Shown here one piece after another: positions 53,778 through 64,000 of a stretch of 64,000 nucleotides of DNA. A program made the position numbers and the translations under genes. Under the pieces are notes generated by a model. The model was given only the letters and a program-made list of their open reading frames with translations. It ran no database searches and had not been told where the DNA came from. Position 1 is the first letter of the stretch. Every line of letters starts with the position of its first letter. Source of the DNA: a bacterium (lineage in GTDB: Bacteria > Verrucomicrobiota > Verrucomicrobiia > Verrucomicrobiales > Akkermansiaceae); assembly GCA_018222765.1 (NCBI GenBank), contig JAAEZT010000002.1:46111-110110 (forward strand). Direction: 5' to 3'.

Positions 53778-54974
53778 TCAAAGAACTCCAAGCTCTTTCC
53801 CCACCTCCACAAATGCCTCAAGGCCTCGATCCAAATGCTCCTTGGTGTGCGCCGCGGAGATTTGGGTCCGGATCCTCGCCCGTTCTTTTGGGACGACCGG
53901 GAAGAAAAAGCCAATCGCGTAAACTCCCCTCTCCATCAACCCTTCCGAAAATCGCTGGGACAATTCCGCCTCCCCTAAAATCACCGGCGTAATCGGATGT
54001 TCCGCCCCCGACACTTCAAAGCCCGTCGATTCAATCTGCTCCCGAAAATACCGGGCGTTTTCTTTCGCGCGATCCGCCAAGTCCGTCGAAGCCGTCAACA
54101 TCTCCAGCACCTTGAGCGACGCCGCTGCGATTGGAGGCGCAATACTATTCGAAAATAAATACGGCCGCGATCTCTGACGAAGCAAATCTACGATCTCCTT
54201 CTTCCCCGAAGTGTATCCGCCTGAGGCACCTCCGAGAGCTTTTCCCAAAGTCCCCGTCGTCAAATCAATCTTCCCAAAAAGACCACAATGCTCATGCGTC
54301 CCGCTCCCGCGCGCGCCGAGGAACCCCGTGGCATGACAGTCATCAAAGTGCACCAAAGCGCCATATTTTTCCGCCAGTGCATGAACGCCCGCGAGATCGG
54401 CAATCACTCCGTCCATCGAAAAAACCCCATCCGTTGTGATCAACTTATGTCTCGCTCCATCGGCATCCGCCTGCTTCAGCTTTCCCTCCAAATCCGCGAG
54501 ATCATTGTTGGCGTAGCGATAGCGCTTAGCTTTGCACAAACGCACGCCATCAATAATTGAGGCATGATTGAGCGAATCCGAAATCACGGCGTCTTCCGCC
54601 GTCAACAAGGTTTCGAAAAGCCCGCCGTTGGCATCGAAACATGAGGGATAGAGAATGGTATCCTCCGTTCCGAGAAACTCTGTGAGCGCCTCTTCCAGTC
54701 GACGATGTAAGGTCTGGGTACCGCAAATAAATCGAACCGAAGAGAGCCCGAAACCATATTCATCGATCGACTCTCTCGCCGCTTCCCGAACCTCAGGGTG
54801 ATTCGACAGCCCAAGGTAGTTGTTCGCGCACATGTTGATCACCCGTCGACCGTCATCGAGCGTAATCTCCGCGTCCTGAGGCGAACTGATCTGGCTTTCT
54901 TTTTTATAAAGGCCATCGCGCTTAATCTCATCGAGAGTTGTGGCAAGCTGAGTCTGAAATTCAGAAGTATACAT
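53778..54974 (-). CDS. kbl: Glycine C-acetyltransferase (2-amino-3-ketobutyrate CoA ligase)
   Basis: 398 residues, the exact family length. Motifs: [79 protein letters not shown], and the PLP-binding lysine K245 in [14 protein letters not shown]. Kbl splits 2-amino-3-oxobutyrate with CoA into glycine and acetyl-CoA, following threonine oxidation by Tdh. It lies 18 bp downstream of tdh, so kbl and tdh form one threonine-degradation operon with tdh first. Confidence 0.97.
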
Positions 54975-54992: not shown

Positions 54993-56027
54993 TTATCCAA
55001 GGTCGGACCATTGCAGAAGAACTTTCCCGCAGGAGCCCCCTTTCATCGCCGCGAAGCCCTCTTCGAAATCGGCGTAGTGAAAACGATGAGTGATCACGGG
55101 CGAAATATCGAGGCCCGACTGGATCATCGAGGTCATCTGATACCAGGTCTCGTACATCTTCCGGCCATAGATTCCCTTGATCGTCAGTGAATTAAAAATG
55201 ACCTGATTCCAGTCAATCGTGACATTCGGCCCGGGAATTCCCAACAGGGCAATCTGTCCACTATGCCGCATATTGGAAATCAAGTCATTAAAGGCATCAT
55301 GATTTCCGGACATTTCCAAACCGACATCAAATCCCTCTTTCATTCCCAATTCATCTTGAACGTCCGATAATTTTTCCTTTCCCACGTTAACAGTCCTCGT
55401 TGCTCCAAGCGTTCTGGCTAGCTCCAGGCGTGTCTCGTCCAGATCAGTAATCACGACGTGTCTCGCGCCCGCATGTTTTGCGATCGCCACTGACATGATT
55501 CCGATTGGACCCGCCCCGGTAACGAGCACGTCCTCGCCCAGCAGGGGAAACGTGAGCGCCGTATGGGTGGCATTCCCGAGGGGATCGAAAATCGCAGCTT
55601 CATCGCGTGAGATCTCCGGAGCCAGCTTCCAAACATTTGTCGCCGGCAGCGCGAGATACTCCGCGAAGGCACCCGGCGAAGTCACCCCCACGCCTTTGGT
55701 GTCCTTGCAGTAATGCCGCCGTCCCGCCAGACAGTTGCGACACCTTCCACAAATCAAATGCCCTTCCCCGGAAACAACATCACCCACTTTCAAATAATCT
55801 ACCTCCCCGCCGACCTCGACAATGTCCCCCACAAACTCATGCCCCGTCACCAAGGGCACCGGAATGGTCTTGGCCGCCCATTCATCCCAATTGTAGATGT
55901 GCAGGTCGGTGCCACAGATCCCCGTCCGATCTACTTTGATCAAGACGTCCCGGGGACCAATTGAGGGCTCAGGAACATCCAACAAAGCCAAGCCAGACGC
56001 GGAGTCGTTTTTAACAAGTGCTTTCAC
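54993..56027 (-). CDS. tdh: L-threonine 3-dehydrogenase
   Basis: 344 residues of zinc-dependent medium-chain dehydrogenase. The catalytic zinc ligands are C38 ([16 protein letters not shown]), H63 and E64 (GHEFVG); the structural zinc cysteines are C93, C96, C99 and C107 ([15 protein letters not shown]). The Rossmann motif is [22 protein letters not shown]. The [13 protein letters not shown] signature and the partner kbl separate it from other alcohol dehydrogenases. It oxidises threonine with NAD+ to 2-amino-3-oxobutyrate, which Kbl cleaves to glycine and acetyl-CoA. It diverges from the thioredoxin-like gene across a 191-bp spacer. Confidence 0.97.
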
Positions 56028-56218: not shown

Positions 56219-57238
56219 ATGAAAACTTTCGCACTCCTGCTCTTAATTTCTATCGCCACCCTCTCCGCGCAACGAGGCCCAAGACCTCATGAGATTGCCG
56301 AATCACCCGCTGACATCGGCTCATCAGGCTTCGTCTGGTATCCCATCCTCGAAGACGGACTCGCCGAAGCCAAACGCTCCAAGCGTCCAATCTTCTTCTT
56401 GGCCGCCGCTTCACAGTGCAGCGGGGTTTCCGGAGTCTTCTGACCCGGCTACACTCACACGGCGTACCGGGAGTACACCAAAAACGATGTGATCAAAGCG
56501 AGCCGCGACTTTGTCTGTATTCGCATCGACTCCTACGAAAGCGAAGAGGCTCAGAAAATTGTCCGCAGCCATCTCAACGGACGATTTGAAAACACCGCCT
56601 TCTGCATCCTTTCCCCTGATGGTAAAGAACGCCTGACTCGAAGCGGACGTGGACCCGGACAGGTTTTTAGAGGAAATCTCGCGAGCTCCCTCAACACCAT
56701 TTCCAAAGAATATCGGAGCAGAGACAAGGGCGCCGCAGTCCCCGATTTCCCCACATTCAAGCTCAGCCTCAACGTCACCTCCGCCGATCAACGCCTGCTT
56801 CTTCTCGTCACCGGGAATGACAAGGAACTCAAAACCGCCCGCAAGTACCTCCAACCATTCGCAGAGCACCCGGACATCATTGGCCGCTTCCACTACGATT
56901 TTGAAAGCGACGAAAAAGCTTGGTCAAAGGTCCTGAGCAAAAGTAAATCAGGCTCTCGAATCATGATTGTTGCAGCCGACACCTTCGGACAAAAAGGCGA
57001 AGTTATCAAAAGTTTCCCTCTCAATGTCAAACTGAGTGATCTGAAAGACGCTCTCCTCAAGGCCAATGAATCCTACGCAAAAAACACGCCGAAGAAAAAC
57101 TATGGCAACCACATTCAAAAGGGCCGTCGCAATGGCGTGACCTGGGAAATGCCCATGGAGTATGGTGAAGACCGGGACGGAGACGGAAAAATCGACCATC
57201 GTGGAGGAGCAGGTCGTCCGGGGCCACGCCGACGGTAG
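56219..57238 (+). CDS. Exported thioredoxin-like protein with in-frame TGA (candidate selenocysteine codon)
   Basis: Two open frames in the same phase are joined by TGA at 56441-56443. Read through, the protein has 339 residues: a signal peptide (MKTFALLLLISIATLSAQRG), then SSGFVWYPILEDGLAEAKRSKRPIFFLAA (a thioredoxin-like strand), a Cys at about 67 (SQCSGVSGVF), the TGA at codon 75, PGYTHTAYREYTKND and IKASRDFVCIRIDSYES. The tail is rich in G, R and P. Codon use stays typical on both sides and no frame shift is present. A hairpin follows the TGA at the distance expected of a bacterial SECIS. Either it is a selenoprotein, or the gene is broken by a nonsense change (for example TGG or CGA to TGA). 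Confidence 0.7.
56444..56471 (+). promoter_or_regulatory. SECIS-like hairpin directly downstream of the in-frame TGA
   Basis: CCCGG (56444-56448) pairs with CCGGG (56467-56471); after a bulged C at 56449, TAC (56450-56452) pairs with GTA (56464-56466). The 11-base loop holds GG at 56461-56462, 18-19 bases after the TGA; in E. coli fdhF the loop GG is also about 19-20 bases downstream. The fit is good by eye but folding energy was not computed, and the hairpin could be chance in GC-rich coding sequence. Confidence 0.4.
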
Positions 57239-57241
57239 GAA

Positions 57242-60200
57242 CTATCGTTCTGCCACCTTCAATCGGTAAAATCTTTTTTCTCCCGCTGCGACAGGCTTAC
57301 CAAAAGTTATCAGCTCCCGCCCATCGACCGGAACGGCCCGTGACACCACGGTCAATGATTCGTCGCTCCCCCAATCTTCCAGATTCGTAGAACTCTCCAA
57401 CATTAACCTGGCCTGATCAGCTCCGACTCTCACTGGAAACTGAAAACGCCATTCGCCACCATCCTCCGAAAAGAGAATTGCCAATCTTCCATCACGCCGG
57501 TCTCCGGCATCCGTCCCGATGGCATACTCGAAGAAGTCATCCAATTCATCGCCATCGGAATCAACTCCGGAAAGACCACCAAAAGCAAGCGTCGCCCCAC
57601 TTCCCGGAGTTCCCCCCGCAAACATGCTCACTCGCCAATTTGAAGCATCGCGATGATCCGGATTTGTATCCGGTGATATCAAAGTTAAACTATGTCCCGC
57701 CCCATCCGCACCCTTGGGCCAGGGAGCAGCATCGTTAAAGGCAAAGTCATGGATCACCGAGCTATCGGCAGCCCGCAAATCGATCCACTCGCCGTCATTG
57801 TTCAAGCTGCCCGAAAAAGTCCCCACCACTTTATCTGCTTCGTCAGGATACGCCGCGGCGAAATCATCGAGATTTTTCACTAACACGATCCGCTCCCCGG
57901 GAACAAGCACCCACAAGCGCGTGCTTGTCCCTTCATCAAAGGAAAATTCAACGCCGTCTCGAAATTCTACACCCCGCAGGTCCACCGGAAGATCTCCGAC
58001 ATTCATCAACTCTACGAATTCCTCCTCAGTCTCCGTATTCGACGGATGATAATATAGTTCACTGATAACGAGATTCTCACTACTCGCCGGTTCCGTTCCG
58101 ACGTAAAACGCCGCACTGCTCAACGCACTCCATTCTCCGCCGCTTAAGGCACGGGCATTCACAATAAACGAAGCACCCAAGGGAACTGCGCCACTGTAGA
58201 CAAATCCCCCGCCATCCTTCGGGTCGCTTCCATCGATGGTATAGCGAATCTCGCCAGCTGGCGCTGTCATCGTCAAATTGAATCCCGGCGGAACGTTGCC
58301 CCCAAATTGACTCATCTCCGGCGCCTCGACGGAGGGATAGAGATTTTGATTCCTAAATTGATTCAAGACCGTTTCACTACGTCCCGGGATGTAGGTACTC
58401 AACTGGTAATTCACCTCCGTCTGCCACTCCGAATTCACCGTATACGGATTTCCGGCTCGCTGAGCATCTCCCCACCTCGCCGATTCCGCAATCAGGGGAA
58501 TGCGCAATTCATCCACGAAGCCCTGGAAGGTTGCCGCAACACTCGGCGGAGTCAGCGCTCCGTTATTGAAAAAATGACGGTGAATGCGATCCGCAAATAA
58601 CAATCGATAATCCGCATTGGCCCGTAATTTCTGATGCACCCCTGTCGCACGCCCTGCATTATTTTTCGTGGTATTATTTACCATCGGTCCCAGCAAAGTC
58701 CGCTCGGAATCCCAAGTGAAAAACTTAAAGGTCTCGCCCTCTCCTCTCAAGCGCCCCGCCTGCCAGTTGTTGGTATCCCAGTCCGAGTTACCGTTGTAAA
58801 AATTCACCAACAACCAATCGATCATGTTCTCCAAATCGAGATATTCCTGAATTCCATCGTAGTTTTCCGGCAAGGCCATGTCGGTTTCCGAGATCGCCAG
58901 GACCTGATCCCACGGATCCACCGAACCATCGACCGCCTCGATCCCTGGTCGAGGCGATGACTTGATGACATCCCAATCTTCCTTCTCCCCGCCAAAGGCC
59001 TGCACCATGGAATCAGATTCGATTCGCTCGATGGTATTGAATAAGCCCCAATACATTCCATTGAGATAGACATGAATGTGACCTTGCCTTGTGGCGGGTT
59101 GCCCCATTTCACCCTGAAGACGCCGCGCCAACTGGTCTCGAATGTAGAGCGCCTCTTCCCGTTGAGGGGCATTGGGATGGAACCACGAGTCACCATTCTG
59201 ACCACGAAGCAAATAGCTGTTCACTTCGTCATTCTCGCTTCCCTCTCCAAAGATTGGAAACTTCAAAGTCGATTCCCCGTAGCCACTCCGAAAGACAAGG
59301 CGCATGTTGTGTTTCTTTCGTGAGGTCGTCCGACTAGCATTACCAAAAATGCGCATCCCCGCATCGAGTTGAATTTCTTCACCATGAGGAAAATCAAAGA
59401 ACTCCGCCGAGACTCTTCGCTCCCACGCCGGCCCACGGGCGATCACCGAATTAGAATAAATCCCACCAGTCGTCGGATCGGTATCACTGTTAAACCAATC
59501 ATCGACCTCCATCACCAGAGACAAGGTCGGGAGACCCCGCAAAGCCGCCTTGATCTGAGCCGTTGTCCCAATACTTCCTCCACTCGCCATTGCGTAGTCA
59601 GCTGTCACCGACGGCTGCCAGGTCGCAGGATAGCCAGCCGGATTTGGGGGCTGGTTCACCACGTCATCGAGAAAAAGGTAAGTGTGCGTCATCACCTTCA
59701 GGGGAACGGCACCGGGAAAAAACGCACTCGCCCGCAAGGTCGTAGTAGTAGAAATTGAAATCGGAGCTGAGTAGAGAATCCCATTGTCTGGAGATGGCTC
59801 ACTGGCATCCATGGTATAATATATCTCAGCGCCCACAGCCTCGGTTGAGAGAGCCACATTGAACGGTGCCGTAAAAAAGCCACGGGTGACATCTGCCACC
59901 ACCTCCTCATCAATGACCGAATCAGCAGCCGTCGAGGCATTCGCCGCCAGGGGAGTCGGATTCACAAAATAACCCGGCCCATTCTCGGATAGCCCCCACG
60001 ATACTCCCACATTTTGCTCGGGATACTCGGGAGAAAACTCATGGTGAATCGTTACCCCGTCCGGCTCGACCAAGGCAAGATATTCCCCCTCCCGGGCCAA
60101 TCCAAAATTGGCGTGCAATTCCCCCGCCGCCCCGACCCGGTCCTTGCCACTGGCGAAGATCATAAGATATCCGTTCCCATTCACTTGCGCGTTCGGGAGT

Positions 60201-60667
60201 TCCCACTTCGATAAATTTTCCGGGTCATCGGTAAGATACCAACCTGCGAGATTTCCGCCCAGCCCTCCCAAATTTCTCAACTCGATCCAGTCGGACTCGT
60301 CACCGTCTTCATCCTGAATCGGTCCGGCATTTCTCGCCTGGATTTCGTTCAATCGAATCGGTCCGAAGACGGAAACCTCGACCGTTACAGATCTTGACTC
60401 GGTATCAATCCCATCCGAAGCAGTCAACGTATACACCGTCGTTTCCTGGGGAGCCAAGATCCCGCTTCCAGATCTTGCCGGTATCGAGCCAATTCCCGGT
60501 TCCAAAGTCAAAGACGTCACGCCCTCATTCACGGCCCAACTGATCGTCACCGCTTCCCCAGGATCGACCCCGGAAGGCGCAGCCTGAAAACTACTGATCA
60601 AGGGCAATCCTAATACACTGGTATGCAAGCACGCCCAGCTGCAAATGAGCAGGTATATTCTCATCAA
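57242..60667 (-). CDS. Giant surface protein with Ig/PKD-like, lamin-tail, CHB_HEX and CotH domains (1141 aa)
   Basis: A signal peptide (MMRIYLLICSWACLHTSVLG) is followed by an Ig/PKD-like domain (FQAAPSGVDPGEAVTISWAV), a lamin-tail domain (PIRLNEIQARNAGPIQDEDG), a chitobiase C-terminal-like repeat (IYYTMDASEPSPDNGILYS), and CotH (LDAGMRIFGNASRTTSRKKHNMRLVF; HVYLNGMYWGLFNTIERIESD; FFTWDSERTLLG). Then come a second chitobiase-like unit (IRYTIDGSDPKDGG), a lamin-tail domain (VISELYYHPSNTETEEEFVELMNVG) and the C-terminal module DSDGDELDDFFEYAIGTD to RFYRLKVAER. It is a closer paralog of the 41.3-46.4 kb protein than of the 1.7-6.3 kb one, by domain order. Confidence 0.87.
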   Translation of the reverse strand: MMRIYLLICSWACLHTSVLGLPLISSFQAAPSGVDPGEAVTISWAVNEGVTSLTLEPGIGSIPARSGSGILAPQETTVYTLTASDGIDTESRSVTVEVSVFGPIRLNEIQARNAGPIQDEDGDESDWIELRNLGGLGGNLAGWYLTDDPENLSKWELPNAQVNGNGYLMIFASGKDRVGAAGELHANFGLAREGEYLALVEPDGVTIHHEFSPEYPEQNVGVSWGLSENGPGYFVNPTPLAANASTAADSVIDEEVVADVTRGFFTAPFNVALSTEAVGAEIYYTMDASEPSPDNGILYSAPISISTTTTLRASAFFPGAVPLKVMTHTYLFLDDVVNQPPNPAGYPATWQPSVTADYAMASGGSIGTTAQIKAALRGLPTLSLVMEVDDWFNSDTDPTTGGIYSNSVIARGPAWERRVSAEFFDFPHGEEIQLDAGMRIFGNASRTTSRKKHNMRLVFRSGYGESTLKFPIFGEGSENDEVNSYLLRGQNGDSWFHPNAPQREEALYIRDQLARRLQGEMGQPATRQGHIHVYLNGMYWGLFNTIERIESDSMVQAFGGEKEDWDVIKSSPRPGIEAVDGSVDPWDQVLAISETDMALPENYDGIQEYLDLENMIDWLLVNFYNGNSDWDTNNWQAGRLRGEGETFKFFTWDSERTLLGPMVNNTTKNNAGRATGVHQKLRANADYRLLFADRIHRHFFNNGALTPPSVAATFQGFVDELRIPLIAESARWGDAQRAGNPYTVNSEWQTEVNYQLSTYIPGRSETVLNQFRNQNLYPSVEAPEMSQFGGNVPPGFNLTMTAPAGEIRYTIDGSDPKDGGGFVYSGAVPLGASFIVNARALSGGEWSALSSAAFYVGTEPASSENLVISELYYHPSNTETEEEFVELMNVGDLPVDLRGVEFRDGVEFSFDEGTSTRLWVLVPGERIVLVKNLDDFAAAYPDEADKVVGTFSGSLNNDGEWIDLRAADSSVIHDFAFNDAAPWPKGADGAGHSLTLISPDTNPDHRDASNWRVSMFAGGTPGSGATLAFGGLSGVDSDGDELDDFFEYAIGTDAGDRRDGRLAILFSEDGGEWRFQFPVRVGADQARLMLESSTNLEDWGSDESLTVVSRAVPVDGRELITFGKPVAAGEKRFYRLKVAER

Positions 60668-60742: not shown

Positions 60743-63700
60743 CTACGGAACGAACACAACATTCACGCGGAAGTATTGCGGGATACTTGTATCCGGCAGG
60801 AAAATAGGAAAGGGCACCGCGACGAGTTCGTAGTCGGAATTCGCACCGACCGGAGACGCTAGGACAACCACTGGATCCGCACTCACATACCAGTTATCGA
60901 GATCAGAGCTGAACTGGGGAACATAACGCACACTCCCCGAGTCTCCATGATCAATCCTTCTGACGAACACCCCTCTGAAGGCACCGCCGTCCAAATCCGC
61001 AATTGGAACTCCATTAACAGAACCATCGATGGCCAGACTGGCATTATCATCGGAATTCGGATCCGTGCCAAAACCGAATTCCAGAAGATTGTTCAAACCA
61101 TCCAAATCACCGGCATCCGAGAAGTCCGAACCGTCTCCGGTATTCGAAGCCGAACCAAAATATTGGAATCTCCATGAGCCAATGGCATTGGCAGAACCGA
61201 TCGTGAGCAAGATATCATTCCCATCTCCGCCCTCATAGTCAACCAATCCGGCCAATCCTGATCCCAGGAAGTTTGTCGTAAAGGGATCGCCGAAAGCAAA
61301 GGTGCCGGTGACATCATCTGCCTCATCATTGGATACGACAACAATGGCTGAGGGAGATCCCTCGACAGTCGTCGACTGGGTTACCACAAGAGACCCGGTG
61401 GACAAGTCGATCGTTCCCGTCACCGCAATTTGATCCCAGTCCGTTCCTCCGATTCCAGTGGTATTATTGACATCGATGGCGAGTGTTCCATTCAAGTCGA
61501 GTGTTCCCACGGAGAGTGTTCCGATACCAGTCCCTCCAGGAGAGAGACTACCGTTGTTTTGAATTGTTACGTTCGATTCAGTTGAACCTGTTCCCGCAAG
61601 AGTGGAATTATTGACGGTATAGTTTCCGCCTCCAGTGTGGCTTCCGTTCAAGAACATGGTCCCTCCAACAATATTGCCCCCAATAGTTGTTGTTCCAGTG
61701 TAAGTATTCGTTCCAGAGAGAGTAACCTCACCATTATCGAAGTTATTTTGGAGAAGCACATTTGCCAGGCCGGTGATATCTCCAGTGACGGTCCAACTTC
61801 CGTTGTCCTTACCTTCACTTCCTTCGAAATTCATACTAGAGGCAGATGTTGGCAGACTAATATTCCCGCTGATCACCAGATCCACTCCATCAAGCCCCAC
61901 ATTACTGTATCCCCGGGTGCTGCTGTTGATATTGGTAATGTCTCCGGCAATCTCAAAACCAAACGAACCGCCACAACGGAATCCGCCACCATCAATTTCA
62001 AAATCATTGGGAATCACAATGCCAGCTGTACCAGCCCGAAGCTGTGCACCGCGCGAATGAACGACACCAGCCCCAAGATCGTCATTGTGGTTGACCACTA
62101 CGAATCCTTGTTTAACTCCAGTCTCTCCATCGAAAAAGCTGCTCGCTCCATCGCCCAACATGAATCTCCCAGTAAAGGTATTTCCTCCGGGACCAGCCAA
62201 AACGAGGGTTCCATCTCCCAAGGTGCGAACCTCCCCGTCTCCACTAATCTGACCCGAGCAAGTTTGGGATTTATCAATATCGGTATTGAATTCCAAAATC
62301 CCTGGGCTGTTGACTACAATCGGGCCATTTCCATCCAGACTGGATTGGAACCCAAGTGCAGTGGCGAAGCCTACTCTGAAGGCGCCATCGCTAATGGTCG
62401 TCGTTCCCGTATAGGTCACGGGATTGTGAAGAATAAATTGCCCTGTTCCAACTTTCGTCAAATTGCCGCTACCCGAAATGCCACATTGCACAATGGCATC
62501 ATTGTCGTCTCCAAACACCAACGTTTCCGCCCCAAGATCAATACTGGGAGTCTCCGAGGCTGCGAGGGAAGCGATCGTTATCGGACTCCCTCCGCTTCCA
62601 GTGAGCTGCAGAGTAACTGCACCGGTAAGCGAGACTGCTTCGCTCGAATAATCTCCACTATTCACGATCACCGTTCCGTTGGGCTGAACCGCCGACAGCG
62701 CTTCTCCAATTGTTGCGAACGCATTGTAACTCATTGTGGCCGGAGAGACCGCAGAACCGCTATCGGCATCTGCGATTGCTGAGCCCGCAGTGGTGCCCGA
62801 AAAATCATCGTCCACATAAATTGGATCGGGAGCGGTTTCAGAAACGATGATCGTGCCTGCCGTGGGACCGCCGCCATCTTCGTCACCGTCCTCGACCGAC
62901 ACCAAAATTACCGTCGGATCAATTGCAACAAAGCCCGGGACAAATTCAACCGCAGCGAGCGCTGCCGTCACAGTAGAAGGTTCTCCAGTCACCGTCCATT
63001 CTCCTGAGGCATTATCAAATGATTCTCCATTCCCACTCGCGGCCGTGAGCTCACCTTCGAGTCCGGTATAATTTTGAATACTCAGGGTCACCGTGACTTG
63101 ATCGGCTGCTCCAATACTTGTGAAAATACCCGCACCATCAGACTCATTCCAAAATTTCAAGCTTGATACTGCAGCGGATCCTCCGGAAAGAGCCCTGATA
63201 CTAACATCAGTAAAAGGCGACCCTGGTGTATTGGTATTTCCTCCGGTTCCGGTTGCGTTTCCCACATTGATTCCTACGTTGACGGTATGGTCACCAACCC
63301 AGTTACTGCTATCATTACTCGCCAAGTTCGCTGTCGCAGACGCCGCTCCATTGACGGAGTAGGTCACCGAGTCACTGGCATCACTCAGAATCATCGCTAG
63401 ACGAACCGGAGCTCCTGGAACCAGAGCAATAGTAGAGAGAGGAACAACAATCGTATCGTCACCCAACCAGCTCAGGTCGGTGAAGACTCCCGCAGTAGAA
63501 AGATCATCAGTCGGAACATCCGCGGGTGCACCACCCGACTTCACCAGGAGGTGCGGAATTCCATTCACCAAGAGAATAGAACTTCCATTGCTACTCCCGC
63601 CAATCTCCCAAACAAGAACAGTTCCCGTGAGATCAGCTGCTTGGACCGTAAAATCTATTTCAATCGCGTAACCTGATGCAACCGCAAGTGCGGCACCATT

Positions 63701-64000
63701 TGCATCGATATCAAAACTGCTATCGTCCGGGGACCGTCCATCGCTGAACGTAGAAATATTGCTCAGTCCCGCATAATAGACCAGTGGCGTTCCCAACCCG
63801 ATTAGCGAGGATCGAGTTGAGTCATCGGGATCAAATATCGTGATGTCATTCAAGGGAATGTTCCCCGCAAATGATCCAACCGCCACCTGGGCCAAGTTTG
63901 TACCGGTGGGACTGCTATTCCCATCACCAATAAGAACGATCGCACTGGAAGGAGATCCCGCAATGGGGGTGACCTGCCCACCACTCATCGCACCGATATT
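60743..64000 (-). CDS. Large surface protein with autotransporter-type beta-strand repeats, 5' end outside the window
   Basis: The frame is open up to the window edge (codons upstream of the ATG at 63988 read N-I-G-A without a stop), so the true start lies outside. At least 1085 residues are present. A cadherin/Ig-like N-terminal part (LSIQNYTGLEGELTAASGNGESF) is followed by right-handed beta-helix-like text (YVDDDFSGTTAGSAIADADSG) and autotransporter-associated beta-strand repeats (GSGNLTKVGTGQFILHNPVTYTGTTTISDGAF; LSGTNTYTGTTTIGG; NVTIQNNGSLSPGG). The last 124 residues are the shared D-rich/LLEF/YFRVNV module. No translocator beta-barrel is seen, so despite the repeats it is not a classical autotransporter. 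Confidence 0.82.
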   Translation of the reverse strand, partial: NIGAMSGGQVTPIAGSPSSAIVLIGDGNSSPTGTNLAQVAVGSFAGNIPLNDITIFDPDDSTRSSLIGLGTPLVYYAGLSNISTFSDGRSPDDSSFDIDANGAALAVASGYAIEIDFTVQAADLTGTVLVWEIGGSSNGSSILLVNGIPHLLVKSGGAPADVPTDDLSTAGVFTDLSWLGDDTIVVPLSTIALVPGAPVRLAMILSDASDSVTYSVNGAASATANLASNDSSNWVGDHTVNVGINVGNATGTGGNTNTPGSPFTDVSIRALSGGSAAVSSLKFWNESDGAGIFTSIGAADQVTVTLSIQNYTGLEGELTAASGNGESFDNASGEWTVTGEPSTVTAALAAVEFVPGFVAIDPTVILVSVEDGDEDGGGPTAGTIIVSETAPDPIYVDDDFSGTTAGSAIADADSGSAVSPATMSYNAFATIGEALSAVQPNGTVIVNSGDYSSEAVSLTGAVTLQLTGSGGSPITIASLAASETPSIDLGAETLVFGDDNDAIVQCGISGSGNLTKVGTGQFILHNPVTYTGTTTISDGAFRVGFATALGFQSSLDGNGPIVVNSPGILEFNTDIDKSQTCSGQISGDGEVRTLGDGTLVLAGPGGNTFTGRFMLGDGASSFFDGETGVKQGFVVVNHNDDLGAGVVHSRGAQLRAGTAGIVIPNDFEIDGGGFRCGGSFGFEIAGDITNINSSTRGYSNVGLDGVDLVISGNISLPTSASSMNFEGSEGKDNGSWTVTGDITGLANVLLQNNFDNGEVTLSGTNTYTGTTTIGGNIVGGTMFLNGSHTGGGNYTVNNSTLAGTGSTESNVTIQNNGSLSPGGTGIGTLSVGTLDLNGTLAIDVNNTTGIGGTDWDQIAVTGTIDLSTGSLVVTQSTTVEGSPSAIVVVSNDEADDVTGTFAFGDPFTTNFLGSGLAGLVDYEGGDGNDILLTIGSANAIGSWRFQYFGSASNTGDGSDFSDAGDLDGLNNLLEFGFGTDPNSDDNASLAIDGSVNGVPIADLDGGAFRGVFVRRIDHGDSGSVRYVPQFSSDLDNWYVSADPVVVLASPVGANSDYELVAVPFPIFLPDTSIPQYFRVNVVFVP

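Follow-up and report, generated by a model that had tools for sequence, protein, structure and literature searches.

The gene studied here lies in a 64,000-nucleotide stretch of DNA (the window, meaning the whole stretch that was analysed), and consists of one open frame of 339 codons which is interrupted by a single TGA at codon 75 and continues in the same phase to a TAG stop. In the window's own genome (G000, 4.33 Mb, 87 contigs, 97.8% complete) it is a single-copy gene. The first-pass annotation, made from the sequence alone, proposed that the TGA encodes selenocysteine (Sec) in a thioredoxin-like exported protein, and its coordinates and reading of the frame were correct. The features of the gene and of its neighbours are listed in Table 1. 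There was no sign that the upstream neighbours accompany the gene elsewhere, and no neighbour cluster was found in more than 22 of 76 loci, and that one lies on both strands and sides. No conserved gene neighbour hints at a substrate. A scan with Rfam around the gene gave nothing convincing, and no relatives were found in viral and plasmid collections.

Table 1. Features of the TGA-containing gene and its neighbours, in window coordinates
Position	Strand	Feature	Basis
56219-57238	+	Whole gene, ATG at 56219, TAG at 57236-57238	Single frame conserved across homologs, each with a TGA at this site
56219-56269	+	Predicted signal peptide (MKTFALLLLISIATLSA), export to periplasm	Inspection of the sequence; helix 4-12 in the model
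56339-56716	+	Domain 1, predicted thioredoxin fold with the active site (residues 41-166)	AlphaFold2 model and structure comparison
56417-56419	+	Cys67, candidate resolving thiol, eight residues before the TGA	Invariant in both alignments
56441-56443	+	TGA codon for selenocysteine 75, in motif C-x-G-x-x-G-x-F-U-P-G-Y	TGA in every homolog covering the site
56461-56479	+	Conserved SECIS candidate hairpin: upper stem GUAC 56464-56467 / GUAC 56473-56476, loop CGGGA 56468-56472, two lower G-C pairs 56461-56462 / 56478-56479	Conserved pairing, frozen codons, compensatory changes
56729-57085	+	Domain 2, predicted thioredoxin fold without any Cys (residues 171-289)	AlphaFold2 model and structure comparison
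57164-57196	+	C-terminal GEDRDGDGKID, resembling a Ca2+-binding DxDxDG loop	GEDR invariant and DGDG-ID nearly so in the alignment; Ca2+ binding is inference
53778-54974	-	Neighbour resembling 2-amino-3-ketobutyrate CoA ligase, upstream and divergent	By eye
54993-56027	-	Neighbour resembling threonine dehydrogenase, upstream and divergent	By eye
57242-60667	-	Large convergent downstream protein resembling a lamin-tail/CotH/chitobiase-type surface protein	By eye
60743-64000	-	Large repeat-rich, autotransporter-like protein running off the window edge	By eye

Conservation of the TGA codon and the selenocysteine machinery

Homologs with 34-96% identity occur in Verrucomicrobiota and Planctomycetota, two phyla of mostly uncultured bacteria. 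We searched 145 genomes (the window's own and its relatives) and obtained matches in 39, one of which (genome G094) was a weak match that does not belong to the family. The other 38, i.e. 37 of 37 relatives' genomes and the window's own, all have a TGA inside the frame, and the 30 fetched place it at one spot with invariant neighbours. A separate scan of GTDB species genomes gave 79 loci in the two phyla (one record is labelled Spirochaeta), of which 76 cover the site and all 76 have TGA. The two collections overlap in part, and the counts must not be added. A profile search of 387 genomes of the order again gave TGA in every full-length match. The most divergent member (locus L170, 34% identity) also has it, which is far more than expected by chance. 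The homologs include the closed isolate genome of Planctomycetes bacterium K23_9 and the isolate Rubritalea profundi, so sequencing error is excluded.

No Cys, Trp or Arg form was found. Cys homologs were absent from 388 genomes of the phylum and 387 genomes of the order, searched with two profiles that both carry Cys at the site, although Planctomycetota genomes were not searched as a set. The remaining weak matches that were read are DUF255-type or ordinary CxxC thioredoxin-like proteins, plus one member of a second TGA-bearing family described below. It means that the expected Cys/Sec pair does not exist here among the homologs found.

The genome of the window has SelB (272 bits, over cut-off, 655-residue frame), SelA (488 bits), SelD (374 bits) and a tRNA-Sec with UCA anticodon (Rfam 54 bits against a cut-off of 47). 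The SelD gene (G000:C60:58831-59760, that is, contig 60 of this genome) itself carries one in-frame TGA followed by a strong hairpin with a G-G-U loop, and is read as a selenoprotein too. Among the 145 genomes, 38 have both the gene and SelA, which was used here instead of SelB, none has the gene alone, 33 have SelA alone and 74 have neither (Fisher p 1.5e-15, relatedness not removed). TGA also ends 10 of 34 long frames in the window, so the code is not changed wholesale. The refutation tests named in the first-pass annotation that could be run all came out in favour of the selenoprotein reading.

The SECIS candidate hairpin

The first-pass annotation drew a stem of 8 pairs with GG in its loop 18-19 nt after the UGA. 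This stem (CCCGG-c-UAC ... GUA-CCGGG) exists and is the minimum-energy fold of the window sequence (RNAfold, -12.2 kcal/mol for the whole 45 nt), but it is not the conserved element: all 8 pairs form only in the window, 7 in its two 95-96% relatives, and 2-4 in 61 of 77 distinct homologs. The conserved candidate is a smaller hairpin with a 4-pair stem and a 5-nt loop, the loop lying 24 nt after the UGA. Most homologs read GAAC-[A/C/G]GU[N][N]-GUUC, and the loop always has G at its second place, followed by U or, in the window, by G. The published bacterial model (stem of 4 or more pairs, loop of 3-9 nt, G in the first two positions followed by G or U, 16-37 nt after UGA; PMC13188914) is fitted by 73 of 77 distinct sequences, against at most 33 in 300 synonymous shuffles, and all four pairs hold in 72 of 77, against at most 41. 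The shuffle tests ignore relatedness, and five sequences of the Rubritalea group break the pair 25-33 (counted from the T of TGA as 0). The isolated window hairpin is weak (-6.2 kcal/mol), above the -7.5 threshold of the published model, while L170 gave -16.1 kcal/mol.

In a test of 145 conserved codon columns, UGA+6, +7, +8, +10 and +11 (ACG CAG AAC, TTG or CTG, TTC) are among those with the strongest synonymous freezing, and Asn83 is AAC and Gln82 is CAG without exception among the sequences that keep those residues. Compensatory changes were found in all four stem pairs. The pair 24-34 is A-U in most homologs and U-A in the window clade, through two amino-acid changes (N83Y, F86Y). In L170 the stem is CAGG/CCUG with loop AGUUU at the same place, so against the window all four pairs differ and still pair, and against the common form three of four.

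Predicted structure and relation to known families

AlphaFold2 with 60 sequences (pLDDT 88, pTM 0.85) gives two thioredoxin folds. Domain 1 matches 3f9u (cytochrome c biogenesis-related C-terminal domain, VIA Z 10.7), 3ira (Z 10.1), the Brucella DsbH-domain protein 7tkv (Z 9.6), the ER protein 1sen (Z 9.4) and DsbD gamma 2fwe (Z 9.2). These DsbD gamma, DUF255/DsbH and ERp19 type structures share 13-17% identity with it, and here U-P-G-Y with an insert before it stands in place of a CxxC-type site and a second thioredoxin fold follows. Domain 2 matches thioredoxins (Z 9.8 to Caulobacter Trx1, 6esx). A PDB sequence search gave nothing significant. The spacing to the following F-S/D motif and a profile alignment, which sets U-P-G-Y on C-P-P-C of an ordinary thioredoxin with the F-S motif in register, place Sec75 at the first Cys of CxxC, whereas Cys67 lies in an insert before it. 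The model is less confident here, with pLDDT of about 72-77 around the active site and below 50 at residues 78-81.

No Pfam or NCBIfam model reaches its cut-off. The window protein scored 16.2 bits with Thioredoxin_7 (PF13899) against a gathering cut-off of 27, and 28 of 29 members match this model weakly (best E 8e-4). The VPGUxxT family thioredoxin-like (seleno)protein, type 1 (NF041382) is of similar length, but the best score among members scanned singly was 18.5 bits against 350, with none for the window protein, and the motif is F-U-P-G-Y, not V-P-G-U-x-x-T. Trx7/PDZ domain (seleno)protein (NF041199) gave 14.4 bits at best against 300, and TsoB (NF045694) gave 15.9 bits against 805 for the member scanned singly (best E 0.0014); both are Sec-containing with a Thioredoxin_7-like domain, but no PDZ or rhodanese part was seen here, and those have CxxU and UxxxxU motifs. 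The weak similarity to these three models marks a shared kind of fold, not membership. The 2026 catalogue of 119 families has no such motif and that review does not name these phyla (PMC13188914), and the string UPGY together with selenocysteine occurs in no paper searched, although supplementary files, subscription papers and the annotation of these genomes were not covered and priority is not proven. It is likely that the family is new and undescribed.

In a tree of 61 proteins the Planctomycetota members (loci L075, L078, L089, L116, L119, L130 and the GGUCU-loop group) fall in several places among Verrucomicrobiota members. It suggests transfer between phyla with Sec kept each time, but the root is only a midpoint and L170 has a very long branch.

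A faint match in genome G046 led to a second, distantly related thioredoxin-like family with a TGA in a motif such as NPCGET-U-NNG or GHPLGCT-U-NNG. Matches occur in 59 of 193 genomes (a few at the bottom of the list are the present family), and every match that reaches the site is marked with one TGA, as are the 20 loci read in detail (L171-L190), including one in the window's own genome (L183, G000:C52:2698-3660). One subgroup has a hairpin GGUCU-GGUC-AGACC whose loop starts 31 nt after the UGA. No NCBIfam or Pfam model reaches its cut-off for this family.

Interpretation as an exported selenoprotein

We conclude that the gene almost certainly encodes a selenoprotein, although this rests on sequence and structure prediction without selenium or mass-spectrometry data. 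In this explanation SelD makes selenophosphate, SelA turns Ser-tRNA-Sec into Sec-tRNA-Sec, and SelB, recruited by the hairpin downstream, delivers it to the UGA, giving a 339-residue protein. After the inferred export, Sec75 would take the N-terminal nucleophile position of the usual CxxC, Cys67 probably resolves an oxidised Sec as a selenenylsulfide, and the second, Cys-free domain probably binds substrate or partner. That the protein is an exported oxidoreductase with a Sec75-Cys67 pair is inferred and only somewhat more likely than not.

It is possible, though unlikely, that Sec is inserted but the protein is a metal- or selenium-binding carrier rather than a thiol oxidoreductase. U-P-G-Y lacks the second Cys of CxxC, the cis-Pro site seems by inspection to hold Thr126, the second domain has no Cys, and the C-terminal motif is acidic; but the invariant Cys67 near Sec75 and the position of Sec at the thioredoxin nucleophile speak against it. 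Insertion of another amino acid by near-cognate read-through or a changed code is very unlikely. Read-through at UGA is known in general and was not tested directly, but TGA ends ordinary frames in the window, the gene occurs only with SelA, a conserved hairpin of SECIS type follows, and SelD in the same genome shows the same arrangement. It is still less likely that the TGA is a real stop and a second protein restarts at the in-frame GTG at 56489, since residues between them are among the most conserved (P76, G77 and Y78 are invariant) and the restart would cut the thioredoxin fold in two. A nonsense mutation or sequencing error in an ordinary gene is refuted by the same TGA in well over a hundred genomes of two phyla.

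Reviews state that nearly all selenoproteins (PMC13188914) have, or now all known ones (PMC12013277) seem to have, Cys-containing homologs, and the main search methods depend on this. The GOS survey worked from Sec/Cys pairs (PMC2398784), and the deep-Sep authors write that their method may miss families without Cys homologs (PMC12013277). Glycine reductase selenoprotein A (GrdA), by name and pathway an unrelated protein, was once thought to be the one selenoprotein without Cys homologs, and Cys homologs were later reported for it (PMC12013277). The present family appears to be an exception, but that it is truly Sec-only is just somewhat more probable than not. With about the same modest confidence, the two families may form a superfamily of exported, thioredoxin-fold selenoproteins in Verrucomicrobiota, the present one also in Planctomycetota, which exists only with Sec and whose chemistry Cys cannot replace, hidden so far because most searches need Cys homologs and gene callers stop at the UGA. 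A widespread family found only with Sec is a counter-example to the general rule, shows a blind spot of those methods, and gives a direct test of when selenium cannot be replaced by sulfur. It also means that standard gene calling is likely to truncate or miss this gene in these genomes.
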